The position numbers were made by a program, and so were the translations under genes. This document shows, piece after piece, positions 1-8,163 of a stretch of 64,000 nt of DNA; within the stretch, counting starts at the first letter, position 1; every line of letters begins with the position of its first letter. The notes under the pieces are model-generated. The model was given only the letters and a program-made list of their open reading frames with translations, did no database searches and was not told the DNA's origin. This stretch comes from an uncultured Roseobacter sp. (GTDB lineage Bacteria; Pseudomonadota; Alphaproteobacteria; Rhodobacterales; Rhodobacteraceae). The stretch is from positions 1-64,000 of the forward strand of contig NZ_CANMDB010000015.1 of the NCBI RefSeq assembly GCF_947496515.1, in the 5' to 3' direction.

Positions 1-48
1 CACCGAGAGCCCCCCGCCCCGCAGGGGACCGCGCGCAACCGACAGTGC

Positions 49-72
49 AAAGGCCGCCACCGGGCGGCCTTT
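49..72 (+). terminator. Hairpin terminator at the left edge
   Basis: A perfect 10-bp stem (AAAGGCCGCC, 49-58, with GGCGGCCTTT, 63-72) encloses a 4-nt loop. The stem begins with A and ends with T, so it could stop transcription from either side. It probably ends a gene that lies left of the window. Confidence 0.7.
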
Positions 73-763
73 GTCACCTTGTCACGAGAGCGGACCCCGG
101 TGCGCGAGCCCCTCGCCCCGCACACCGCATGTGCGGCACCAGCGGCAGGAGGTCCGCAGCACCCGGTTGCAGTCTGAGACCCCAATGCCATCAGCCCCGC
201 TCGTGCGCGGCCTACCGTAATTTGCGCCGATCACGCGGCCCTGCGGCCCGTGACCCTCACGAACAGCGCCACAAAACTCAGCATCAGCGGGCTGCGCTCA
301 TCGTGGCATGTGCCGCCAGTTTCGTACCATATGTGCCACACTCACAATCGCCGATCCCCTACGATCACTGCAAGCAAAAGAACCGCCCCAAGACACAACA
401 CCGGGGCCGGTTTGGGTTCAGCATCGGCGCGCATGAGTGGACGGTGCCCAGCGAAGCGTGGCGTGTAAGGAAGATGCGCTACACGGGCCAAGCGGATGAT
501 AAAGAGAACGGCGAAAGTGCTACTTTGTGTGCTGTAGGGCAGTCTGCGGTGTCAGTTGCCTTCAGGATTATGGTGCAGCTGGGCAGGTATAGCCGGGCTG
601 TTGTCCCGGTAGTGATCGCGCAAAAACCGCCAAAAGCAGCGGCGGCAGGCATGGGTTCAGCCTACGACAACCTCAACCACCAATGCTGAGTGACCTTGGG
701 TGATCAGCTCGGTCAAAGAACCACGCTTTCTACATCGCGGACATCCTGTGGCGTAAAGCAAGA
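73..763. other. Gene-poor stretch, nothing recognised
   Basis: The long frame across this interval has no family resemblance and an odd composition rich in Arg, His, Gln and Cys, typical of a chance reading frame. I could not find a decayed gene in any frame. A 30-codon frame on the minus strand (342-434) encodes a short hydrophobic peptide, but it has no ribosome binding site, so I do not call it. Confidence 0.5.
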
Positions 764-790
764 CGGCCCCGGGCAACGCACCCGGGGCCG
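764..790 (-). terminator. GC-rich hairpin terminator
   Basis: A 10-bp perfect stem (CGGCCCCGGG, 764-773, with CCCGGGGCCG, 781-790) has a 7-nt loop. Read on the minus strand it is followed by TCTTGCTTT, a weak T-tract. It therefore suits the small minus-strand ORF that ends 40 bp upstream. Confidence 0.6.
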
Positions 791-829
791 CTCTACTTAA
801 CCAGCAGCAAGAAAACGCTGCCGTACTCG

Positions 830-967
830 TCACCGTCTCCTGTGATCCTCCGGCGCCCCGCTCTCGGAGCTGGCCAAGGTGCGCGATGTGCGCTCCTGAC
901 CATCGGTGGCCACCGCTGCGAGAATAATGCCCGCGCCCGCGATGAAGGAGATGAACTTCAAATGCAT
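830..967 (-). CDS. Small secreted or membrane peptide (45 aa), unknown
   Basis: This is a 45-codon ATG-to-TGA frame. It starts MHLKFISFIAGAGIILAAVA, a charged start followed by a hydrophobic run that resembles a signal peptide or a single membrane helix. The rest is a short hydrophilic tail rich in Ser, Arg and acidic residues. A strong hairpin with a partial T-tract follows 40 bp downstream in the same direction, which supports a short transcription unit. I do not recognise a family and the ribosome binding site is weak. It may instead be part of the leader of something else. Confidence 0.45.
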   Translation of the reverse strand: MHLKFISFIAGAGIILAAVATDGQERTSRTLASSESGAPEDHRRR

Positions 968-1180
968 CTTTCTGCTATCCTGACGTGCGACCCGTCTGAG
1001 GGGCCGCCCAAAAGCCTGTCTTCAAAAAGCCCCGGCGTGAATTTCCGACGCTTGAGGCTGTCATTGCAGAAAACGGGTGACTGAACTGTGAACAGGATCA
1101 CGTAAAGCGCTTTTTCTGATGTGGGATTGCAGATTTTTTTGCGCTAATGCTCCACCGAACGTTGCCAGAGGAAGAAACCC

Positions 1181-1837
1181 ATGCCGTTTCCGGATCCGAT
1201 GACACCGCACCCGGTGACTTTGCCGGATGGGAGTGCGCTGCGGAACAACGTCTTTCTGAAAGCGGTGATCGACCATCCGCGGATCGAGGTCGGCGAGTAC
1301 ACTTACGCGAATGATTTTGACCCGCCGTCAGAAACCGCTGGCTGGGCAGGCCGGATTGCCCCGTATCTCTTTCCCTCCGCCCGGGATCGGTTGATCATCG
1401 GGAAATTCGGGCAGTTTGCCCATGGCGTGCGCTTCATCACGTCCGGTGCAAATCATGATATGCGGGGTGTCTCGACGTTTCCTTTCGCCATCCATGATCC
1501 GGCCCGTTTCGGGGGGTATATGGCCACGCTGCCGCCGGGGCGCGATACCATTGTGGGGCACGACGTCTGGATTGGTACGGACGCCCGGATCCTGCCCGGT
1601 GCCCGGATCGGATCTGGTGTGATCATCGGCGCCGCGGCCGTGGTGGGCGGGACCGTCCCGGACTACAGTGTTGTCGTGGGCAACCCGGGCAGGGTCATCC
1701 GGCAGCGCTTTGACAGCGATACCACACGCAGGCTGATGGCGCTCGCGTGGTGGGACTGGCCGATAGACCGGATCCTGAAGCACGAAGGGTTGATTGCCGG
1801 CGGAGATATCGATGCTTTGGAGGCTGTCGCTGTCTAG
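1181..1837 (+). CDS. CatB/Vat-type hexapeptide acetyltransferase
   Basis: A 218-aa protein of the xenobiotic acetyltransferase class of left-handed beta-helix enzymes, which move an acetyl group from acetyl-CoA to a hydroxyl. The segment TSGANHDM near residue 92 matches the active-site region with the catalytic His of this class. Hexapeptide repeats (IVGHDVWIG, ILPGARIG, VIIGAAAVV, VVVGNPGRVIR) fill residues 123-172. The start follows GAGGAA at a good distance. It stands alone, followed by tRNA-Trp. Family members include chloramphenicol and streptogramin acetyltransferases, but most chromosomal homologues have unknown substrates, so a resistance role should not be assumed. Confidence 0.85.
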   Translation: MPFPDPMTPHPVTLPDGSALRNNVFLKAVIDHPRIEVGEYTYANDFDPPSETAGWAGRIAPYLFPSARDRLIIGKFGQFAHGVRFITSGANHDMRGVSTFPFAIHDPARFGGYMATLPPGRDTIVGHDVWIGTDARILPGARIGSGVIIGAAAVVGGTVPDYSVVVGNPGRVIRQRFDSDTTRRLMALAWWDWPIDRILKHEGLIAGGDIDALEAVAV

Positions 1838-1946
1838 GATCATCGACTGTGAGGCGTCGGATACGACGACTGCTGGCTTTTTGGCATGGTGCAGATGGAT
1901 CCCCCTTGAACCTGAGCCTATTTCCGACTACGCCCACAGACGGCGA

Positions 1947-2022
1947 AGGGGTTTAGCTCAGTTGGTAGAGCATCGGTCTCCAAAACCGAGGGTCGTGGGT
2001 TCGAGTCCCTCAGCCCCTGCCA
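1947..2022 (+). tRNA. tRNA-Trp (CCA anticodon)
   Basis: A 76-nt cloverleaf with encoded CCA. The acceptor AGGGGTT pairs with AGCCCCT, the D-arm GCTC..GAGC and the T-arm GGGTTCGAGTCCC are intact, and the anticodon loop CTCCAAA gives CCA. A possible -35 element TTGAAC lies at 1906-1911, but the -10 is poor. A 14-bp palindrome (GGTCCAATTGGACC) follows the 3' end at once. secE and nusG, which often follow trnW in alphaproteobacteria, are not downstream. Confidence 0.97.
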
Positions 2023-2341
2023 AACGGTCCAATTGGACCTGCTCGCCGTGAAGCCCAAACTGGTGCCTCCTTTGGCACACTTCTCCCAACTTGATCCGTA
2101 CAGCCCGCGCGACGGGTTGATGCTCGGGCTGCGCAAGCCGCTTCCCACCGGAGCTGGACCCCGTGGACACTCACTGGTTTGGCCCCGTGATAGACTGCTA
2201 TTGTGCGGGTGGTGTCCGGCTTATTCGGCTCATCAGAGAGTTGTGCCAAGAATCCCTGCAAAAAAACGCAGCGATAGCTCACGATGCGGCGGGACACCCA
2301 GATGACACATTCAGCCGTCTCTTTCATGCAAAAAGCGACTG
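2023..2341. other. Gene-free segment after tRNA-Trp
   Basis: The overlapping frames here have no recognisable protein character. Apart from the 14-bp palindrome next to the tRNA I see nothing. It leads into the left repeat of the decayed element. Confidence 0.5.
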
Positions 2342-2468
2342 TGGCGCGGATGATAAGAGAGAACTGGAACCAAGCGCTCTCATCGTTTCCTCGAAACGAC
2401 TGCCGCATGACTCCATTGCGCCGAGCTTCGTCGCTTTTGTCCACAGCGACTGTGGTGCCCGGGAGAGG
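2342..2468 (+). repeat. Left copy of 127-bp direct repeat (att-like)
   Basis: This segment aligns without gaps to 4355-4481. I count 15 mismatches in 127 positions, about 88% identity, in the same orientation. Its right end, TGGTGCCCGGGAGAGG, matches the 3' end of tRNA-Leu(CAG) at one mismatch in 16, and similarity fades in the next ten bases where the T-arm would be. The hairpin that follows the tRNA (GTCGCT..AGCGAC) is kept. It is either an attachment-site copy left by an element inserted at the tRNA 3' end or a decayed duplicate of the tRNA tail. Confidence 0.8.
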
Positions 2469-2490
2469 CATTGAAGCTCTGTCTCGTGTT

Positions 2491-2566
2491 GTGTCAGGCT
2501 GTTTAAACCGAGGTCTAAATTGATTGATTTCAGATGGTTGCTGTTTCAACTGGTGTCAGGCTGTTT
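2491..2566 (+). repeat. Pair of 14-bp direct repeats
   Basis: GTGTCAGGCTGTTT occurs exactly at 2491-2504 and 2553-2566, 62 bp apart. The pair lies between the left att-like repeat and the integrase remnant, where arm-type binding sites of tyrosine recombinases often lie. The function is inferred from position only. Confidence 0.5.
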
Positions 2567-2609
2567 CATCCTACGCCACATTTAGAGGTGGATATGCGGG
2601 TGGATAGAA

Positions 2610-2765
2610 TTGGCCAGGCCCAAACGCAAACTCACGGCAAGCGCACTCAAAACTTTGGACGCTGCGAAGCACTCAGATGGTAGTGGCCTGTAGTTTCACA
2701 AGCGCAAGGACGGAGGGGCGCAGTAGTTCCTCCGCTATACCCTCTAGTCGGCAACGTCTTGCCGA
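2610..2765 (+). pseudogene. P4-type tyrosine integrase, N-terminal remnant with three TAG stops
   Basis: Read from TTG at 2610, the frame gives LARPKRKLTASALKTLDA, then AKHSDGSGL, stop, FHKRKDGGAQ, stop, FLRYTL, stop. This is the N-terminal (DUF4102-like) pattern of P4-family integrases: KLT near the start, then DGxGL, a positively charged strand, and a W/F-RY strand ending at a Gly. The first two TAG codons fall where the family has Trp (GLW, QWF), as expected from TGG to TAG changes. Homology fades after about 50 codons and there is no catalytic domain. It marks the inner edge of the old element flanked by the 127-bp repeats. Confidence 0.75.
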
Positions 2766-2928
2766 TTGTGTTCCCTTATTTTAGAATATCTTCGGTGCCC
2801 GTCGCACGCCCTCATTCATCAAGAGCCTCCTATTGGTGGATCGCGCGAGGTGGTCTGCGAGCGTCGAACTGTATTTCGGCGTTAGCTTAAGAGAAGTGAC
2901 ATATGGCACTATGTTCTTGGCCGAAGCC

Positions 2929-2990
2929 GGTAAGTGCTTGCGCTTACCAGCGTTACCGGTTTGGCAAGTGGGAAACTGTTGTTTCCCACT
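2929..2990. other. Two adjacent stem-loops
   Basis: GGTAAGTGC (2929-2937) pairs with GCGCTTACC (2940-2948) with one G-U. AGTGGGAAAC (2967-2976) pairs perfectly with GTTTCCCACT (2981-2990) around a TGTT loop. Neither has a T-tract. They lie in the low-GC core of the decayed element, where frames on both strands (for example a TTG-started minus frame, 2781-3215) look non-coding. They may be the remains of a structured RNA or a recombination site. Confidence 0.45.
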
Positions 2991-3175
2991 GCCGTTCATA
3001 TCCTTCGCGCTAGAGGGATACAGACCCTGCGAAGGTAGAGTGTACCAATGCGATGGGCGCCGCCTAACTCGGAACCCTAATGTTAGACAATCCAATTCGC
3101 TCACCACAAAGATCAGCGCTTCATTCTGAGTCAAATCTGCAAAAATAGAAATGATGTCTTCGAAGTATGCGGATC

Positions 3176-3343
3176 TCAATGCCAAGAGAGTGTCTGATCC
3201 AGACCACCCGGCCAAATCTTGTGTGTCTGAGGGATAGCGATAGCATTCGCATCGCCAGCCATCTCCAGCGCCTCTCCCATGATGCCAGCCAAGGCATAGC
3301 CCTGTCTCGGGTGGTTAAGTAGCTTCTGCGGCGAGAGCGGCAA
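3176..3343 (-). other. Possible gene fragment inside the decayed element
   Basis: A 55-codon minus-strand frame ends at TGA (3176-3178) and opens at TTG or earlier. It has a balanced, protein-like composition, including the stretch GYALAGIMGEALEMAGDANA. There is no good start or ribosome binding site and I do not recognise a family. It is more likely the tail of a lost gene than an active one. Confidence 0.25.
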
Positions 3344-3550
3344 ACGTAGGATCTCTAGACATCGTGGTTCCCCGAGCTGCCCGGTGATGGGGGTTTGTGG
3401 AACGCGGAGTGCGTAGTTGGGAAGTCAGGATTTTGGCCGATTTTAACTAAAAGTTAAATTAAATCGGCGGTTGGCTCGATGGTCAGCTATATTTCTGCAA
3501 CCAGCTGGCCAAGCGAAGACGCAAGGCCAGGTTAAGCGTCGGAGAAAGCT

Positions 3551-3877
3551 ATGGCTGTGCAACTGCATGAGATTCTACTGCGTGATATTGGCCAGCCGAC
3601 GAGCTTGGGGCCCTTGTTCAACGACCAGCAACGGAACGAAATGATATTGGAGCGCATGCAGGCTGAAAGACTTCTGGCGGCTTGTACCCTCGACAACGTG
3701 GGATCACTGGTCGATGTTTTGGGCGCGGTCTTGAAAAGACGTTCGACAACGATGCCTGGTGCGAAAAACTTAGATGATGAGTTACATGTCATATATCGAG
3801 CGTTTCGATCAGAACTCGCGTACGATGAAGTTGATGTCGTAATGGCCAGCAAAGATCACGAGTGGGAAGAGTTCTGA
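3551..3877 (+). CDS. Hypothetical protein (108 aa), cargo of the decayed element
   Basis: A 108-aa acidic, Leu-rich protein, probably mostly helical, with no membrane segment. GGAG lies 8 nt before the ATG and an inverted repeat follows the stop, so the unit looks intact in contrast to its decayed surroundings. Upstream (about 3440-3475) is an AT-rich potential hairpin. I do not recognise the family. Its position between the integrase remnant and tRNA-Leu suggests it came in as cargo. Confidence 0.6.
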   Translation: MAVQLHEILLRDIGQPTSLGPLFNDQQRNEMILERMQAERLLAACTLDNVGSLVDVLGAVLKRRSTTMPGAKNLDDELHVIYRAFRSELAYDEVDVVMASKDHEWEEF

Positions 3878-3886
3878 TCGTTTGCA

Positions 3887-3920
3887 GTTGCTCTGCGGCT
3901 TTGCATGACTGTAGAGCAAC
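3887..3920 (+). terminator. Inverted repeat after the 108-aa gene
   Basis: GTTGCTCT (3887-3894) and AGAGCAAC (3913-3920) form an 8-bp stem with an 18-nt loop, starting about 10 bp after the stop codon. There is no T-tract, so termination is only plausible. Confidence 0.4.
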
Positions 3921-3957
3921 GTCGGATGCTAGCAGCCCTTCGAGCCAAAGCTCCCAT

Positions 3958-4185
3958 TCAGTCAGCTAGGTAAGCAAGTATCTCCTTTGCAGTCACCGCT
4001 CCAATGCCGAACATGCGGTTCCCTATATGCGCTTCAACGCATTCATGCAGTAGGTGCCGCAGCTCGCATACTGAATAAATGTCGTTCTTGGCCAGCGCCC
4101 GCTTTTTACTTACCTTCATAACGATGCGGACCCATTTGGTATTGGCGGCCACACGTCTGGCAAGTGGCCAGAAATCCAATGTCAT
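3958..4185 (-). CDS. Doubtful small ORF (75 aa)
   Basis: An ATG-started frame with a basic N-terminal half and a reasonable C-terminal half (FGIGAVTAKEILAYLAD). A stop lies just upstream in frame, so ATG 4185 is the earliest start, but no clear ribosome binding site precedes it. In an overlapping minus-strand frame the same DNA reads CQTCGRQYQM, a zinc-ribbon-like string resembling the protein at 57026-57286. This may therefore be a frameshifted remnant of a small Cys-rich protein. Confidence 0.35.
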   Translation of the reverse strand: MTLDFWPLARRVAANTKWVRIVMKVSKKRALAKNDIYSVCELRHLLHECVEAHIGNRMFGIGAVTAKEILAYLAD

Positions 4186-4354
4186 GATCTGCTGGCTTCA
4201 ACAGGCTCCCCACTTCTGTGAGAAAGATATACAGCAGAGCAGTCCTTGCTGTGTCACACTGTGAGGAAGGCAGCGCAGAGGTGGACAGCGGGATGGATGG
4301 AGACCTCGCAAATCCCTTTAGAGAATTGTTTTTACTAGCTTGTTTTTCAAGAAA
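4186..4354. other. Non-coding tail of the decayed element
   Basis: Slightly AT-rich sequence between the doubtful ORF and the right repeat. I see no gene, promoter or hairpin worth naming. Confidence 0.5.
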
Positions 4355-4481
4355 TGGTGCGGATGAGAAGAGAGAACCAGAACCAAGCGCTCTCATCGTT
4401 TTTTCGAAACGACTGCCGCGTGACACCATTGTGAATAGCTTCGTCGCTTTTATCCAAAGCGACTGTGGTGCCCAGGAGAGG
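4355..4481 (+). repeat. Right copy of 127-bp direct repeat, overlapping tRNA-Leu
   Basis: Ungapped partner of 2342-2468, offset 2,013 bp. The last 16 bases are the 3' end of the minus-strand tRNA-Leu, including its CCA. The other 111 bp lie downstream of the tRNA and contain two hairpins that would form in the tRNA-Leu transcript (TCGTTT..AAACGA and GTCGCTTT..AAAGCGAC). This copy is probably the original chromosomal site because it joins an intact tRNA. Confidence 0.85.
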
Positions 4482-4551
4482 ACTCGAACCTCCACGTCCA
4501 TACAGACACTAGCACCTGAAGCTAGCGCGTCTACCATTCCGCCACCTGGGC
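4466..4551 (-). tRNA. tRNA-Leu (CAG anticodon)
   Basis: An 86-nt class II tRNA with encoded CCA. The acceptor GCCCAGG pairs with CCTGGGC, the anticodon stem CTAGC/GCTAG holds loop TTCAGGT (anticodon CAG), and a long variable arm precedes GGTTCGAGTCC. Its 3' end coincides with the right end of the 127-bp direct repeat, the usual target position of tRNA-specific integrases. Confidence 0.96.
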
Positions 4552-4722
4552 AGGTGTCGTGAAACGTGGATTTAAGCCCATGTTTGGGGGGTGTCAAACG
4601 GAAAGTCGCCGTTTTTTCAGGCTTGGGCGATAGGGCGTGCAAGCGCTCTGCGCTGATTTGCGCCTTGTCTCAGGTAGGGGGCGGCGATACATCCAACAGA
4701 AGCACAAAATGAGGGTCGCACT

Positions 4723-5706
4723 ATGTCCAAGTTGGTCACGATTTACGGTGGGTCTGGCTTTGTCGGGCGATATATTGCGAGACGCATGGCCAAGGCAGGT
4801 TGGCGGGTGCGTGTTGCCGTGCGCCGCCCCAATGAGGCGATTTTTGTCAAACCCTACGGTGTGGTTGGTCAGGTCGAACCGGTGCTGTGCAATATTCGCG
4901 ATGATACATCCGTCCGGGCGGTGATGTCGGGTGCGGATGCGGTGGTCAACTGTGTCGGCATCCTCGCTGAAAGTGGCAAGAACCAGTTTGAAGCGGTGCA
5001 GGCCGAAGGTGCGGCCCGCGTGGCGCGCATCGCAGCGGAAGAGGGTGTGACCGCTTTGGTCCAGCTCTCTGCGATCGGCGCGGATGCGGGGTCTGCCAGC
5101 GAGTACGCGCGGACCAAGGCCGCGGGCGAGGCGGCGGTGCTGGAGCATATGCCCCAAGCGGTGATCCTGCGGCCGTCAATTGTTTTCGGAGCAGAGGATC
5201 AGTTCTTCAACCGCTTTGCTTCCATGGCGCGGTTCGGCCCCGTGCTGCCGGTTGTTGGCGCTGAAACACGCTTTCAACCTGTTTACGTGGACGACGTCGC
5301 CAAAGCGGCGGAGCTGGCGCTGACGGGAAAAGCAGCGCCGGGCATCTACGAACTGGGCGGGCCCGATGTGGCGAGTTTTCGCGCGTTGATGGAGCAGATG
5401 CTGAAGGTGATCCACCGGCGTCGCCTGGTGCTCAACGTGCCGTTCTTTGCGGCGCGGATCATGGCCTTTGGTTTTGATATGCTGCAGACCCTGTCGCTGG
5501 GGCTTTTTACCAACGGCATGATCACCCGGGATCAGGTGCGCAATCTGGCCAATGACAATGTGGTCAGCGACGGCGCGCGCGGGTTTGCGGAGTTGGGGAT
5601 CACGCCCACATCCATGGCGTCGGTGTTGCCGGAGTATCTGTGGCGCTTCCGTCCGTCGGGTCAGTATGATGCCATCAAGGATTCCGCCAAGAACCTGCGC
5701 ACTTAG
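4723..5706 (+). CDS. NDUFA9-like complex I-associated NAD(P)-binding protein
   Basis: A 327-aa atypical short-chain dehydrogenase. The Rossmann motif GGSGFVG (residues 9-15) is at the N-terminus, followed by VNCVG and by a YARTKAAGE segment in the position of the YxxxK motif. The family contains the NDUFA9 subunit of mitochondrial complex I and alphaproteobacterial homologues, which bind NADPH structurally rather than as active dehydrogenases. GAGGG precedes the ATG. It is tail-to-tail with uppP, with a 4-bp overlap of the two coding ends. No complex I genes are nearby, so the complex I link rests on the family. Confidence 0.85.
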   Translation: MSKLVTIYGGSGFVGRYIARRMAKAGWRVRVAVRRPNEAIFVKPYGVVGQVEPVLCNIRDDTSVRAVMSGADAVVNCVGILAESGKNQFEAVQAEGAARVARIAAEEGVTALVQLSAIGADAGSASEYARTKAAGEAAVLEHMPQAVILRPSIVFGAEDQFFNRFASMARFGPVLPVVGAETRFQPVYVDDVAKAAELALTGKAAPGIYELGGPDVASFRALMEQMLKVIHRRRLVLNVPFFAARIMAFGFDMLQTLSLGLFTNGMITRDQVRNLANDNVVSDGARGFAELGITPTSMASVLPEYLWRFRPSGQYDAIKDSAKNLRT

Positions 5707-6506
5707 CTGTAGGCGTAAGCCAGCAGGATGACGCCGAGCACCACGCGGTAGATGACGTAAGGCGTAAAGCTGACGCTGCGCAGCAGGCGCATCATCAGGA
5801 TCAGGGCCAAGAGGGCGGCGGCAAAGGCGAAGACCGCCGCGATCAGCCCATCGCGCATCAGCGCCCAGTCCGCCTGACCGGCCACATCGACGCCCAGCAC
5901 AAGGCCGGAGGCCGCGATGGTGGGGATAGACATGAGCATGGCGAGCTTGGCCGCCCCTTCACGCCCGTAGCCCAGCTTGCGCGCCGCCGTGATCGTGATG
6001 CCCGACCGGGAGGTGCCGGGGATCAGTGCCAGCATCTGCGCCAGCCCCATCAGGAAAGCGTCGCGCAGGTGCCAGTCGCCGGCCTGCGCCGTCTCGGCGC
6101 CGGTCTTGTCCGCCCAATAGAGCACGATGCCAAAGCCCAGCATGGTCCAGCCAATCACCGCGACGGACCGCATCATCTGGTCGACCCCGGTGAGCTTGAT
6201 GGCGATGCCTGCGAGCACCACGGGAACCGTGGCCACCGCGAGGCAGAGGGCGAGGCGCGCGCCATCGGTGTCCACGCGCCCGCACAGCAGACGGACGCTG
6301 CCCGCGAGGGCGATTTTGACGTCGGACCAGAAATAGAGTACAACCGCAAAGAGAGTTCCCACATGCACCGCCACGTCGATGGCCAGGCCCTGGTCGTCCC
6401 AGTTCGTCACTGATGGCAGCAGAACGAGGTGGCCGGAGGAGCTGACGGGCAGAAACTCCGTCAGGCCCTGGATGGCCGCGACGACGAAAAGCTGAAAAAG
6501 CGTCAT
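5703..6506 (-). CDS. uppP: Undecaprenyl-diphosphatase UppP (BacA)
   Basis: A 267-aa polytopic membrane protein that removes a phosphate from undecaprenyl diphosphate to recycle the lipid carrier for peptidoglycan and other envelope polymers. The two family signatures are present: QGLTEFLPVSSSGHL (13-27) and PGTSRSGIT (163-171), which supply the catalytic Glu, Ser and Arg. Length and the spread of about eight membrane helices are normal. It is transcribed away from gltD, sharing the 180-bp intergenic region upstream. Resistance to bacitracin is a known overexpression effect of the family, not something shown here. Confidence 0.95.
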   Translation of the reverse strand: MTLFQLFVVAAIQGLTEFLPVSSSGHLVLLPSVTNWDDQGLAIDVAVHVGTLFAVVLYFWSDVKIALAGSVRLLCGRVDTDGARLALCLAVATVPVVLAGIAIKLTGVDQMMRSVAVIGWTMLGFGIVLYWADKTGAETAQAGDWHLRDAFLMGLAQMLALIPGTSRSGITITAARKLGYGREGAAKLAMLMSIPTIAASGLVLGVDVAGQADWALMRDGLIAAVFAFAAALLALILMMRLLRSVSFTPYVIYRVVLGVILLAYAYS

Positions 6507-6613
6507 TGAGAATCCCCGACCGGTGCTCTGCTGCCGTGGTATAAACAGTCAGAATCAAAAGGAAAGTCCCGGCAATAGGGCCGGATCGGAACCTTTTTCG
6601 ACGATTTTCTACT

Positions 6614-6643
6614 TTGACGCACGCGGTAGCCAAAAAAATAATC
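6614..6643 (+). promoter_or_regulatory. Predicted sigma-70 promoter of gltD
   Basis: TTGACG (6614-6619) is followed after 17-18 bp by AATAATC, a good -35/-10 pair. It lies about 85 bp before the gltD ATG. I see no clear NtrC or Lrp-like operator beside it. Confidence 0.5.
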
Positions 6644-6729
6644 CTACAAAGGACAGCATTGCTGACTTTATTTCCCCGGCGACATGATTTATGCGTGCGG
6701 TTCCGGAGTTTTGGTGGAGGCAGCAGCCC

Positions 6730-8163
6730 ATGGCGAAGCAACCCATGTTGAAATTCGTGCAGGTTGAGCGCGACATGCCCGAAAAGCGTGCAGCAGATGT
6801 ACGCCGTGAGGATTTCAACGAGATTTACGCGGAGTACGCGGAAGCCAAGGCGCAGGAGCAATCCGCGCGGTGCAGCCAGTGTGGCGTGCCCTATTGTCAG
6901 AGCCACTGCCCGCTGCACAACAACATCCCCGACTGGCTGCGGCTGACCGCCGAAGGGCGTCTGCAGGAAGCCTATGAGGTGAGCCAGGCGACGAATACCT
7001 TTCCGGAGATCTGCGGGCGCATTTGCCCTCAGGACCGGCTCTGCGAAGGCAACTGCGTGATCGAGCAATCCGGCCACGGTACGGTCACCATCGGCGCTGT
7101 GGAGAAATACATCACCGACACCGCGTGGGAGGAAGGCTGGGTCCAGCCCATCGTGCCGCGCGCGGAGCGGAGTGAGAGCGTGGGCATCATCGGCGCGGGC
7201 CCCGGTGGTCTGGCGGCGGCGGATGTGCTGCGGCGTGCGGGCGTTCAGGTGACCGTCTATGACCGGTACGACCGCGCCGGTGGTTTGATGACCTACGGCA
7301 TCCCCGGTTTCAAACTGGAGAAGGACGTGGTGATGCGCCGCAACGACCAGCTGGCGCAGGGCGGGGTCACATTCGAGCTGAATACCAACGTGGGCGAGGA
7401 CGTCTCCTTTGCCGATCTGCGCGCGCGGCATGACGCGGTGATCATCGCCACAGGTGTCTATGAAACAAGGGAAATCGAGGCCCCGGGTGTCGGCTCCAAA
7501 GGGCTGGTGCGGGCCATTGATTTCCTGACCGCGAGCAACCGCAAGAGCTTTGGCGACGCGGTGCCGGAGTTTGACAACGGCGATCTGAACGCCGAGGGCA
7601 AGCGCGTCGTGGTGATCGGTGGCGGTGACACGGCCATGGACTGTGTGCGCACCTCCGTGCGGCAAGGGGCCACGTCGGTCAAATGTCTTTACCGCCGGGA
7701 CCGGGCGAACATGCCGGGCAGCCAGCGCGAAGTGCAGAACGCCGAAGAGGAAGGCGTGATCTTTGAGTGGCTCTCTGCCCCAAAGGGGTTTGTGGGTGAT
7801 CCCGTTACCGGCGTGATGGTGCAAAAGATGCGGCTGGGCGCACCGGATGCGACGGGCCGTCAGGCCCCCGAGGTGATCGAGGGCGCGGATTACGTTGAGG
7901 ACGCGGATCTGGTGATCATGGCGCTGGGCTTTGAGCCCGAAGCGCTGCCGACGCTCTGGGATGAGCCAAGCCTGCCGGTGACCCGCTGGGGCACGATCAA
8001 GGCCGAGTACACCACGGGTGCGACGGATCTGCCGGGCGTTTACGCGGTGGGTGACATCGTGCGGGGTGCGAGCCTCGTGGTCTGGGCGATCCGCGACGGG
8101 CGCGATTGCGCCGACGCCATCCTGAAAAAGCTGGGTGCCGAAACGGCGATCGCCGCGGAATAA
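6730..8163 (+). CDS. gltD: Glutamate synthase small subunit GltD
   Basis: A 477-aa FAD/NAD(P)H oxidoreductase that passes electrons from NADPH to GltB for making glutamate from glutamine and 2-oxoglutarate. The N-terminal Cys-rich region (CSQCGVPYCQSHCP, then CGRICPQDRLCEGNC) binds two 4Fe-4S clusters. Two dinucleotide folds follow (GAGPGGLAA and GGGDTAMD). I chose ATG 6730 because GGAGG lies 9 nt before it and MAKQPMLKF is the usual start; the frame runs further upstream without a better site. It precedes a GFA-family gene and gltB on the same strand, so all three may be cotranscribed. Confidence 0.95.
   Translation: MAKQPMLKFVQVERDMPEKRAADVRREDFNEIYAEYAEAKAQEQSARCSQCGVPYCQSHCPLHNNIPDWLRLTAEGRLQEAYEVSQATNTFPEICGRICPQDRLCEGNCVIEQSGHGTVTIGAVEKYITDTAWEEGWVQPIVPRAERSESVGIIGAGPGGLAAADVLRRAGVQVTVYDRYDRAGGLMTYGIPGFKLEKDVVMRRNDQLAQGGVTFELNTNVGEDVSFADLRARHDAVIIATGVYETREIEAPGVGSKGLVRAIDFLTASNRKSFGDAVPEFDNGDLNAEGKRVVVIGGGDTAMDCVRTSVRQGATSVKCLYRRDRANMPGSQREVQNAEEEGVIFEWLSAPKGFVGDPVTGVMVQKMRLGAPDATGRQAPEVIEGADYVEDADLVIMALGFEPEALPTLWDEPSLPVTRWGTIKAEYTTGATDLPGVYAVGDIVRGASLVVWAIRDGRDCADAILKKLGAETAIAAE

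Follow-up and report, generated by a model that had tools for sequence, protein, structure and literature searches.

Two long direct repeats lie near the start of the window analysed here, a stretch of 64,000 nucleotides from contig NZ_CANMDB010000015.1 of an uncultured Roseobacter sp. The right repeat reaches into a tRNA-Leu(CAG) gene, and about 2 kb of DNA is held between the two. A sequence-only reading had taken them for the attachment (att) ends of an old tRNA-targeted island, and the question raised by this locus is whether the repeats were made by the island or came independently of it. It was found that 111 bp of each repeat is a dispersed unit that trails many other tRNAs, so that the full 127 bp could not be upheld as att ends. 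The two copies in the window are very probably separate insertions of this unit.

The repeats and the unit they contain

As had been described, the stretches 2342-2468 and 4355-4481 align without gaps, with 112 of 127 bases identical (about 88%); nine of the 15 mismatches are transitions. In a repeat search the pair extended to 138 nt at 86%, and the remaining direct-repeat families in positions 1-7000 of the window were all 31 nt or shorter. The final 16 bases of tRNA-Leu(CAG) were confirmed within the right repeat, and the left repeat keeps them with one mismatch (15/16), again as claimed. The likeness to the tRNA goes beyond these 16 bases: of the 27 nt that precede the left unit, 22 are the same as in the end of tRNA-Leu(CAG). 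A genome search revealed further copies of the window repeat on other contigs of the window genome, mostly behind tRNA-Leu or tRNA-Ser genes.

Read in the sense of the tRNA, the unit begins directly behind the CCA, with hairpin A 2 bases in, followed by a spacer, hairpin B (pattern GC GGCA stem GAGA GC) and a 29-nt tail. The tail is tRNA-like, opens with GTTC and closes with CCA; the 27 nt before the left unit are dissimilar to such tails. The length of the unit is 111-117 bp and it is gene-free.

A covariance model of the unit was used to search genomes of the family and of the class. In the window genome it detected 12 places. Units were present in 14 of the 294 other genomes of the family sample (15/295 with the window genome) and in 4 of the 384 other genomes of the class sample, where stricter filters were applied and weak matches were lost. 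The family search yielded 26 places outside the window genome, 25 of which became loci, and in 18 of these 25 the unit starts at the CCA of a called tRNA. When GTDB genomes were searched for the exact hairpin-B pattern, 15 loci were obtained, in records of Rhodobacteraceae, Hyphomicrobiales, Rhizobiaceae, Neomegalonema and Marinicaulis. These loci have hairpin B in common by construction of the search; 14 of them belong to arrays that immediately follow a tRNA gene (Leu, Ser, Ala, Thr or Val). Among the tRNA-Ser regions of the genus the unit occurred in 3 of 26 loci (genomes G008 and G004), and in G014 one was located behind tRNA-Leu(UAG).

The hairpin-B pattern gave no hits in viral contigs, and the unit had no blastn match in plasmids. 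No RNA family except tRNA scored above the Rfam threshold, and searches of the open-access literature showed no description of such units in Alphaproteobacteria.

Kinship of the units

The right unit of the window is 94% identical to unit 1 behind tRNA-Leu(UAA) and 87% identical to the left unit. Being nearer to a unit at another tRNA than to each other, the window copies look like separate insertions, and the divergence of the repeats does not date the island, as had been supposed. That the 127-bp repeats are long, diverged att sites produced by integration of a 2-kb island is very unlikely: an integrase remnant and the displaced tRNA end do stand at the expected att position, but other tRNAs also carry the 111-bp part that follows the tRNA end, and its two window copies are not mutually closest. 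For the units themselves, long att sites are rejected on the 94% and 87% identities.

The same pattern was observed at the serine tRNAs. Unit groups at different tRNAs show 83-94% identity. One group is common to tRNA-Ser(GCU) and tRNA-Ser(GGA) (88%), and a second includes units of Ser(GCU), Ser(GGA), Ser(CGA) and G008 (83-92%). Neighbouring units at one tRNA share 64% at Ser(GGA) and 69% at Ser(GCU), yet each is at least 88% identical to a unit at another tRNA. These values, together with those of the window copies, argue against local tandem duplication by slippage or unequal crossing over, which is hardly credible as a general explanation. Tandem arrays do exist, and on contig C1 the neighbouring units are mutually closest (89%), which leaves room for local duplication on that contig; for Ser(GGA), Ser(GCU) and Leu(CAG) the identities contradict it.

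A filled and an unfilled orthologous site could be compared in one case, tRNA-Ser(GGA) in the window genome and in G008, a member of the same genus. G008 has one unit there, 88% identical to the outer unit of the window genome and 63% to the inner one. Since G008 carries the outer type alone, a unit was added exactly at the CCA in the window genome. The covariance model was trained on several units from the genome's own arrays, and the higher scores of inner over outer units in those arrays are biased and carry no weight.

Hairpins and tail

In 44 distinct aligned units, 93.6% of the cells of hairpin B are paired, with five pairs showing double changes; the alignment was fitted to the model and therefore leans toward structure. 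Slid controls gave 30-62% paired cells. Hairpin A was evaluated without alignment, and in 31 of the 44 units no more than 5 of 100 mononucleotide shuffles reached the observed pairing. In unit 2 behind tRNA-Ser(GCU) a largely different yet paired stem, TTGCATC/GATGCAA, is placed between the same internal loops. The covariation points to a role as RNA or as single-stranded DNA.

These hairpins speak for an alternative in which the units are trailer RNAs, co-transcribed with the tRNA, cut at the CCA-like ends, regulatory or stabilising in function, and spread by gene conversion. The covariation of hairpin B and the 31 units in which hairpin A beats 95 of 100 shuffles would fit such a role, and PMC8144298 describes the E. 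coli analogues rrA, rrB and rrF as small RNAs. Against it stands the sporadic distribution, with 15/295 family genomes and absence from most genus members, and the tRNA-class-specific groups and the layering resemble insertions. Trailer RNAs are considered a rather unlikely, though possible, explanation.

The match between tail and host tRNA is short. In 40 units directly behind called tRNAs, which were hand-picked with duplicate loci and two decayed G004 units left out, the end of the tail and that of the tRNA shared an unbroken match of 0-9 nt (median 5). Tail positions -4 and -6 follow the host tRNA with frequencies of 0.84 and 0.71, against 0.47 and 0.38; this was calculated on 31 pairs with CCA tails, and 0 of 1000 shuffles reached the observed value. 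The unit at L053 is an exception, its tail being near-identical to the tRNA with one mismatch in the last 17 positions (by eye). Beyond the short host match, the tail belongs to the unit.

Link to mobilizable elements

Three copies of the window genome that lack a tRNA (contigs C1, C5 and C17) stand behind a tail-like end and adjoin mobC-like and relaxase genes. The relaxase is present in 45 of 295 family genomes. A matrix made from 30 unit tails scored above every control (maximum 14.4) in 24 of 30 fetched relaxase loci; one of them, L188, is a locus of the window genome and has its best score on a unit's own tail, and without it the count is 23/29. The matches lie on the outer side of mobC, in most cases 504-587 bp away from where the relaxase begins.

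Six of nine fetched elements have a tRNA facing their far end (Arg, Ser, Tyr, Leu, Thr and Ala), and behind the CCA of that tRNA a serine recombinase is encoded. The recombinase domains were checked in one of these six and in the protein of contig C18 of the window genome. The fetched stretch of the remaining three contained no tRNA, and in two of these genomes the recombinase is encoded shortly beyond the edge of that stretch. The recombinase was detected in 53 of 295 genomes, and 34 of these encode the relaxase too, where 8.1 would be expected (p = 1e-21). The left end of the element comes after the tRNA CCA in 26 of 30 recombinase loci, and 25 have a GTTC at +56 or +59. The window genome has such recombinases on C18, behind tRNA-Leu(GAG), and on C1.

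A profile of the left ends was run over 323 kb of unit loci. Three matches had E ≤ 0.02, each starting 0-2 nt from a unit end, the third of them being weak; one further match (E = 0.99) was located elsewhere. Units and elements thus share their insertion point and occur stacked in either order.

These complete elements also bear on the origin of the units. A relaxase acting by itself on units resembling an origin of transfer (oriT) or a T-border is a possibility, and it was demoted because a serine recombinase is encoded on the tRNA side of the complete elements fetched. The units could also be deletion scars of such elements, with a GTTCGA near the left end recombining with the GTTCGA of the tail, so that the genes were lost and a short CCA-ended block was left. 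The unit layout indeed resembles a left end joined to a tail, and the elements have GTTC at +56/+59 behind the CCA (25/30 loci) and the same tail at the far end. However, GTTC lies about 82-88 nt behind the CCA in the units, the hairpins are different, and near-identical units at several tRNAs would require spread after scar formation. This origin is judged quite improbable.

Several additional features were noticed at these loci. Elements docked at tRNAs, with a large serine recombinase on the tRNA side and mobC and relaxase at the opposite end, were seen in many Rhodobacteraceae (L223-L238, L239-L268), the isotypes of the recombinase/relaxase elements being Leu, Arg, Thr, Ala, Tyr and Ser. 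At L224 (9623-11296) the recombinase frame crosses the left att region into the tRNA antisense, so its C-terminus might change on integration. A cut frame behind tRNA-Leu(UAG) on C8 of the window genome resembles such a recombinase by eye. On C4 of the window genome (L176, 3442-5471), tRNA-Ser(CGA) and its unit are followed 1.3 kb on by a relaxase module, whose outward tail faces the unit.

The tRNA-Leu(CAG) site

The features of the site are collected in Table 1.

Table 1. Features assigned at the tRNA-Leu(CAG) site, in window positions (strand as +, - or., the latter for no strand)
Feature	Position	Strand	Remarks
tRNA-Leu(CAG), host tRNA, CCA encoded	4466..4551	-	ARAGORN; Rfam tRNA
Inner 111-bp unit, behind the tRNA CCA through its own CCA	4355..4465	-	Model score 104.9 bits; 94% to Leu(UAA) unit 1
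Hairpin A of inner unit	4443..4463	-	
Hairpin B of inner unit, GGCA/GAGA internal loop	4389..4419	-	
29-nt tRNA-like tail of inner unit	4355..4383	-	
Decayed integrase element between the units	2480..4354	.	Bounds derive from the units and the displaced tRNA end
Intact 108-aa open reading frame, cargo	3551..3877	+	No Pfam match
Tyrosine integrase N-terminus remnant, two in-frame stops	2610..2744	+	
Pair of 31-nt direct repeats (77%), lying between the displaced tRNA end and the integrase	2479..2571	+	Repeat search
Displaced tRNA-Leu(CAG) 3' end, 22/27 identical	2453..2479	-	
Outer 111-bp unit	2342..2452	-	Model score 102.7 bits
Hairpin B of outer unit	2376..2406	-	
Beginning of another hairpin A, truncated, following the outer unit	2330..2341	-	Sequence

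As read from the letters, the layering is tRNA, unit, decayed element, displaced tRNA end and unit. The inner unit is probably the younger and the outer one the older, although the inner unit could have arrived together with the integrase element.

The proposed island layout held in part. An old, decayed integrase element of 1.9 kb with a displaced tRNA end is present at tRNA-Leu(CAG); what it does not include is the repeats. It shows what is expected of an island, with an integrase remnant by an att site and the displaced tRNA 3' end at the far side. Judging from sequence, the true att trace is this 27-nt end beside the left unit, left by the integrase element. The remnant, correctly placed earlier at 142 bp inside the left repeat, corresponds to the N-terminus of a Sinorhizobium integrase (E = 3e-8, 55.6% over 45 aa) that carries PF13356, PF22022 and PF00589 (arm-binding, core and catalytic domains). 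The fragment matches no integrase model of Pfam, and further pieces of integrase were not found within 2300-4500. The 31-nt direct repeats beside it are possible arm sites.

The single intact-looking gene reported between the repeats was also confirmed. Homologues of its product occur in two genus members at 87% and 78% amino acid identity, and 35 of 65 and 37 of 59 base changes, respectively, fall at third codon positions. These homologues (L271 and L272) are located away from tRNAs, and in G003 the homologue adjoins a frame that by eye resembles a type I restriction-modification methylase.

The search of 18 relatives detected no unit following tRNA-Leu(CAG); one of these loci, L037, is shorter and perhaps cut by the contig end. 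The sequence 3' of this tRNA varies from genome to genome in the 9 of 18 relatives whose flank was readable. In two relatives (L038 and L044) another short block stands behind the tRNA, with a tRNA-like end GGTTCGATTCCCG....GCACCA followed by the same AAACCCGCAACACTTC; this end is possibly a second kind of tail. The layering of the window was noticed a second time at L180 (G021:C1, about 1804400), with an integrase-end-like frame, a displaced tRNA 3' half and a unit.

Proposed explanation

With some reserve, the favoured explanation is that a non-autonomous miniature integrative element, moved in trans, inserted here twice, at different times, and so gave rise to the two repeats. The sequences show that the family is multi-copy and exactly positioned, that its hairpins pair, that the two copies have different closest kin, that one orthologous tRNA has gained a unit, and that tail and insertion point are common to units and mobilizable elements; current mobility, the enzyme and the order of events are what we infer. 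The unit would insert exactly behind the tRNA CCA, pushing older occupants outward, with a tail that mimics the T-loop and acceptor end of the tRNA and whose final nucleotides, about six, tend to match the host. At tRNA-Leu(CAG) an older unit may have inserted first. A tyrosine-integrase element would then have entered the tRNA, displacing the old tRNA end and the unit, after which a younger unit would have inserted behind the restored CCA or come with the integrase element; finally, the latter would have decayed. The mover is most likely a trans-acting recombinase, and the best candidate would be the large serine recombinase of the relaxase-bearing mobilizable elements, which share the CCA docking and the tail. 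This assignment is the least certain step and is offered tentatively, at somewhat less than even confidence.

Several results weigh against this explanation. Covarying hairpins are unexpected for a plain double-strand recombinase site. In 7 of the 25 places outside the window genome there is no tRNA in front of the unit; five of these are in G163, and four of the five form a hairpin-B array away from tRNAs. The unit at L077 stands behind a displaced tRNA half and an integrase-end-like frame, and that at L082 behind a tail-like end. The left parts of the units (hairpins A to B) differ in sequence from the left ends of known elements, and a full-size element with an A-B left end was not seen. 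Among the 295 genomes, unit and recombinase co-occurred in 4 (2.7 expected, p = 0.27), and unit and relaxase in 3 (2.3 expected, p = 0.41). Comparison of open reading frames across the unit loci revealed no recurring recombinase or transposase family. When two recombinases, one integrase and two relaxases were compared by tblastn with 56 unit loci, the matches were the window integrase, the C4 relaxase and short recombinase ends (L058/L078, L083 and L093); L058 and L078 contain one and the same unit. The mutually closest neighbours on C1 belong to the same side.

Two sites with hairpin B were noticed in passing. In G163 a tRNA-free tandem hairpin-B array with a period of about 93 bp (L101 and L184, G163:C11:157151-157475) lies beside a groEL-end-like frame, and in G018 a lone hairpin B (L021, G018:C33:18952-18980) is placed within transposase-like gene sequence.

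Comparison with known systems

Repeats linked to tRNA genes were described in E. coli in 1978. As described in PMC8144298, these tRNA-linked repeats (TLR; RttR/tyrT) are small and non-coding, immediately follow tRNA or rRNA genes as a single copy or several in tandem, have a tRNA-like 3' end, and are defined by an 18-19-bp identity of that end with the host tRNA. The units are similar in standing directly behind tRNAs (18/25 places outside the window genome and 14/15 GTDB loci), in occurring as tandem copies and in the tRNA-like 3' end. In contrast, none of 40 has the 18-19-bp host identity (median run 5), their hairpins differ, and they are linked to mobilizable elements. The unit model had no match with tyrT/RttR at E up to 10, and the units did not match Rfam RtT. 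The unit thus behaves like a tRNA-linked repeat, with membership in that group not shown. If the units form a class of mobile elements, as considered below, tRNA-linked repeats would gain a mobile origin.

The P4-type tyrosine-integrase islands fit the decayed 1.9-kb element and leave the 111-bp units unaccounted for. Long att-like repeats beside tRNAs can be independent mini-insertions, and then give no date for an island; a layered array keeps a record of the entries into a tRNA site and of their order.

MITE-like elements (miniature inverted-repeat transposable elements) are short, gene-free, amplified in the genome and tied to larger elements. The units share with them the small size, the lack of genes, the amplification and one end in common with larger elements; they differ in being site-specific at the tRNA CCA, in lacking terminal inverted repeats and in sharing that one end only.

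The serine-recombinase integrative mobilizable elements at tRNA 3' ends have the insertion point, the 29-nt tail and the stacking in both orders in common with the units, which differ in being 111-117 bp long, gene-free and provided with other left ends. It is conceivable, although we hold it with less than even confidence, that the units form an unnamed class in Alphaproteobacteria: gene-free mobile elements of 111-117 bp that target the CCA, have a tRNA-mimicking tail and two hairpins that are conserved in structure and act as RNA or single-stranded DNA, share their docking with serine-recombinase elements and build layered arrays. The common tail ties small tRNA repeats to serine-recombinase mobilizable elements, by which the origin of such repeats becomes testable.

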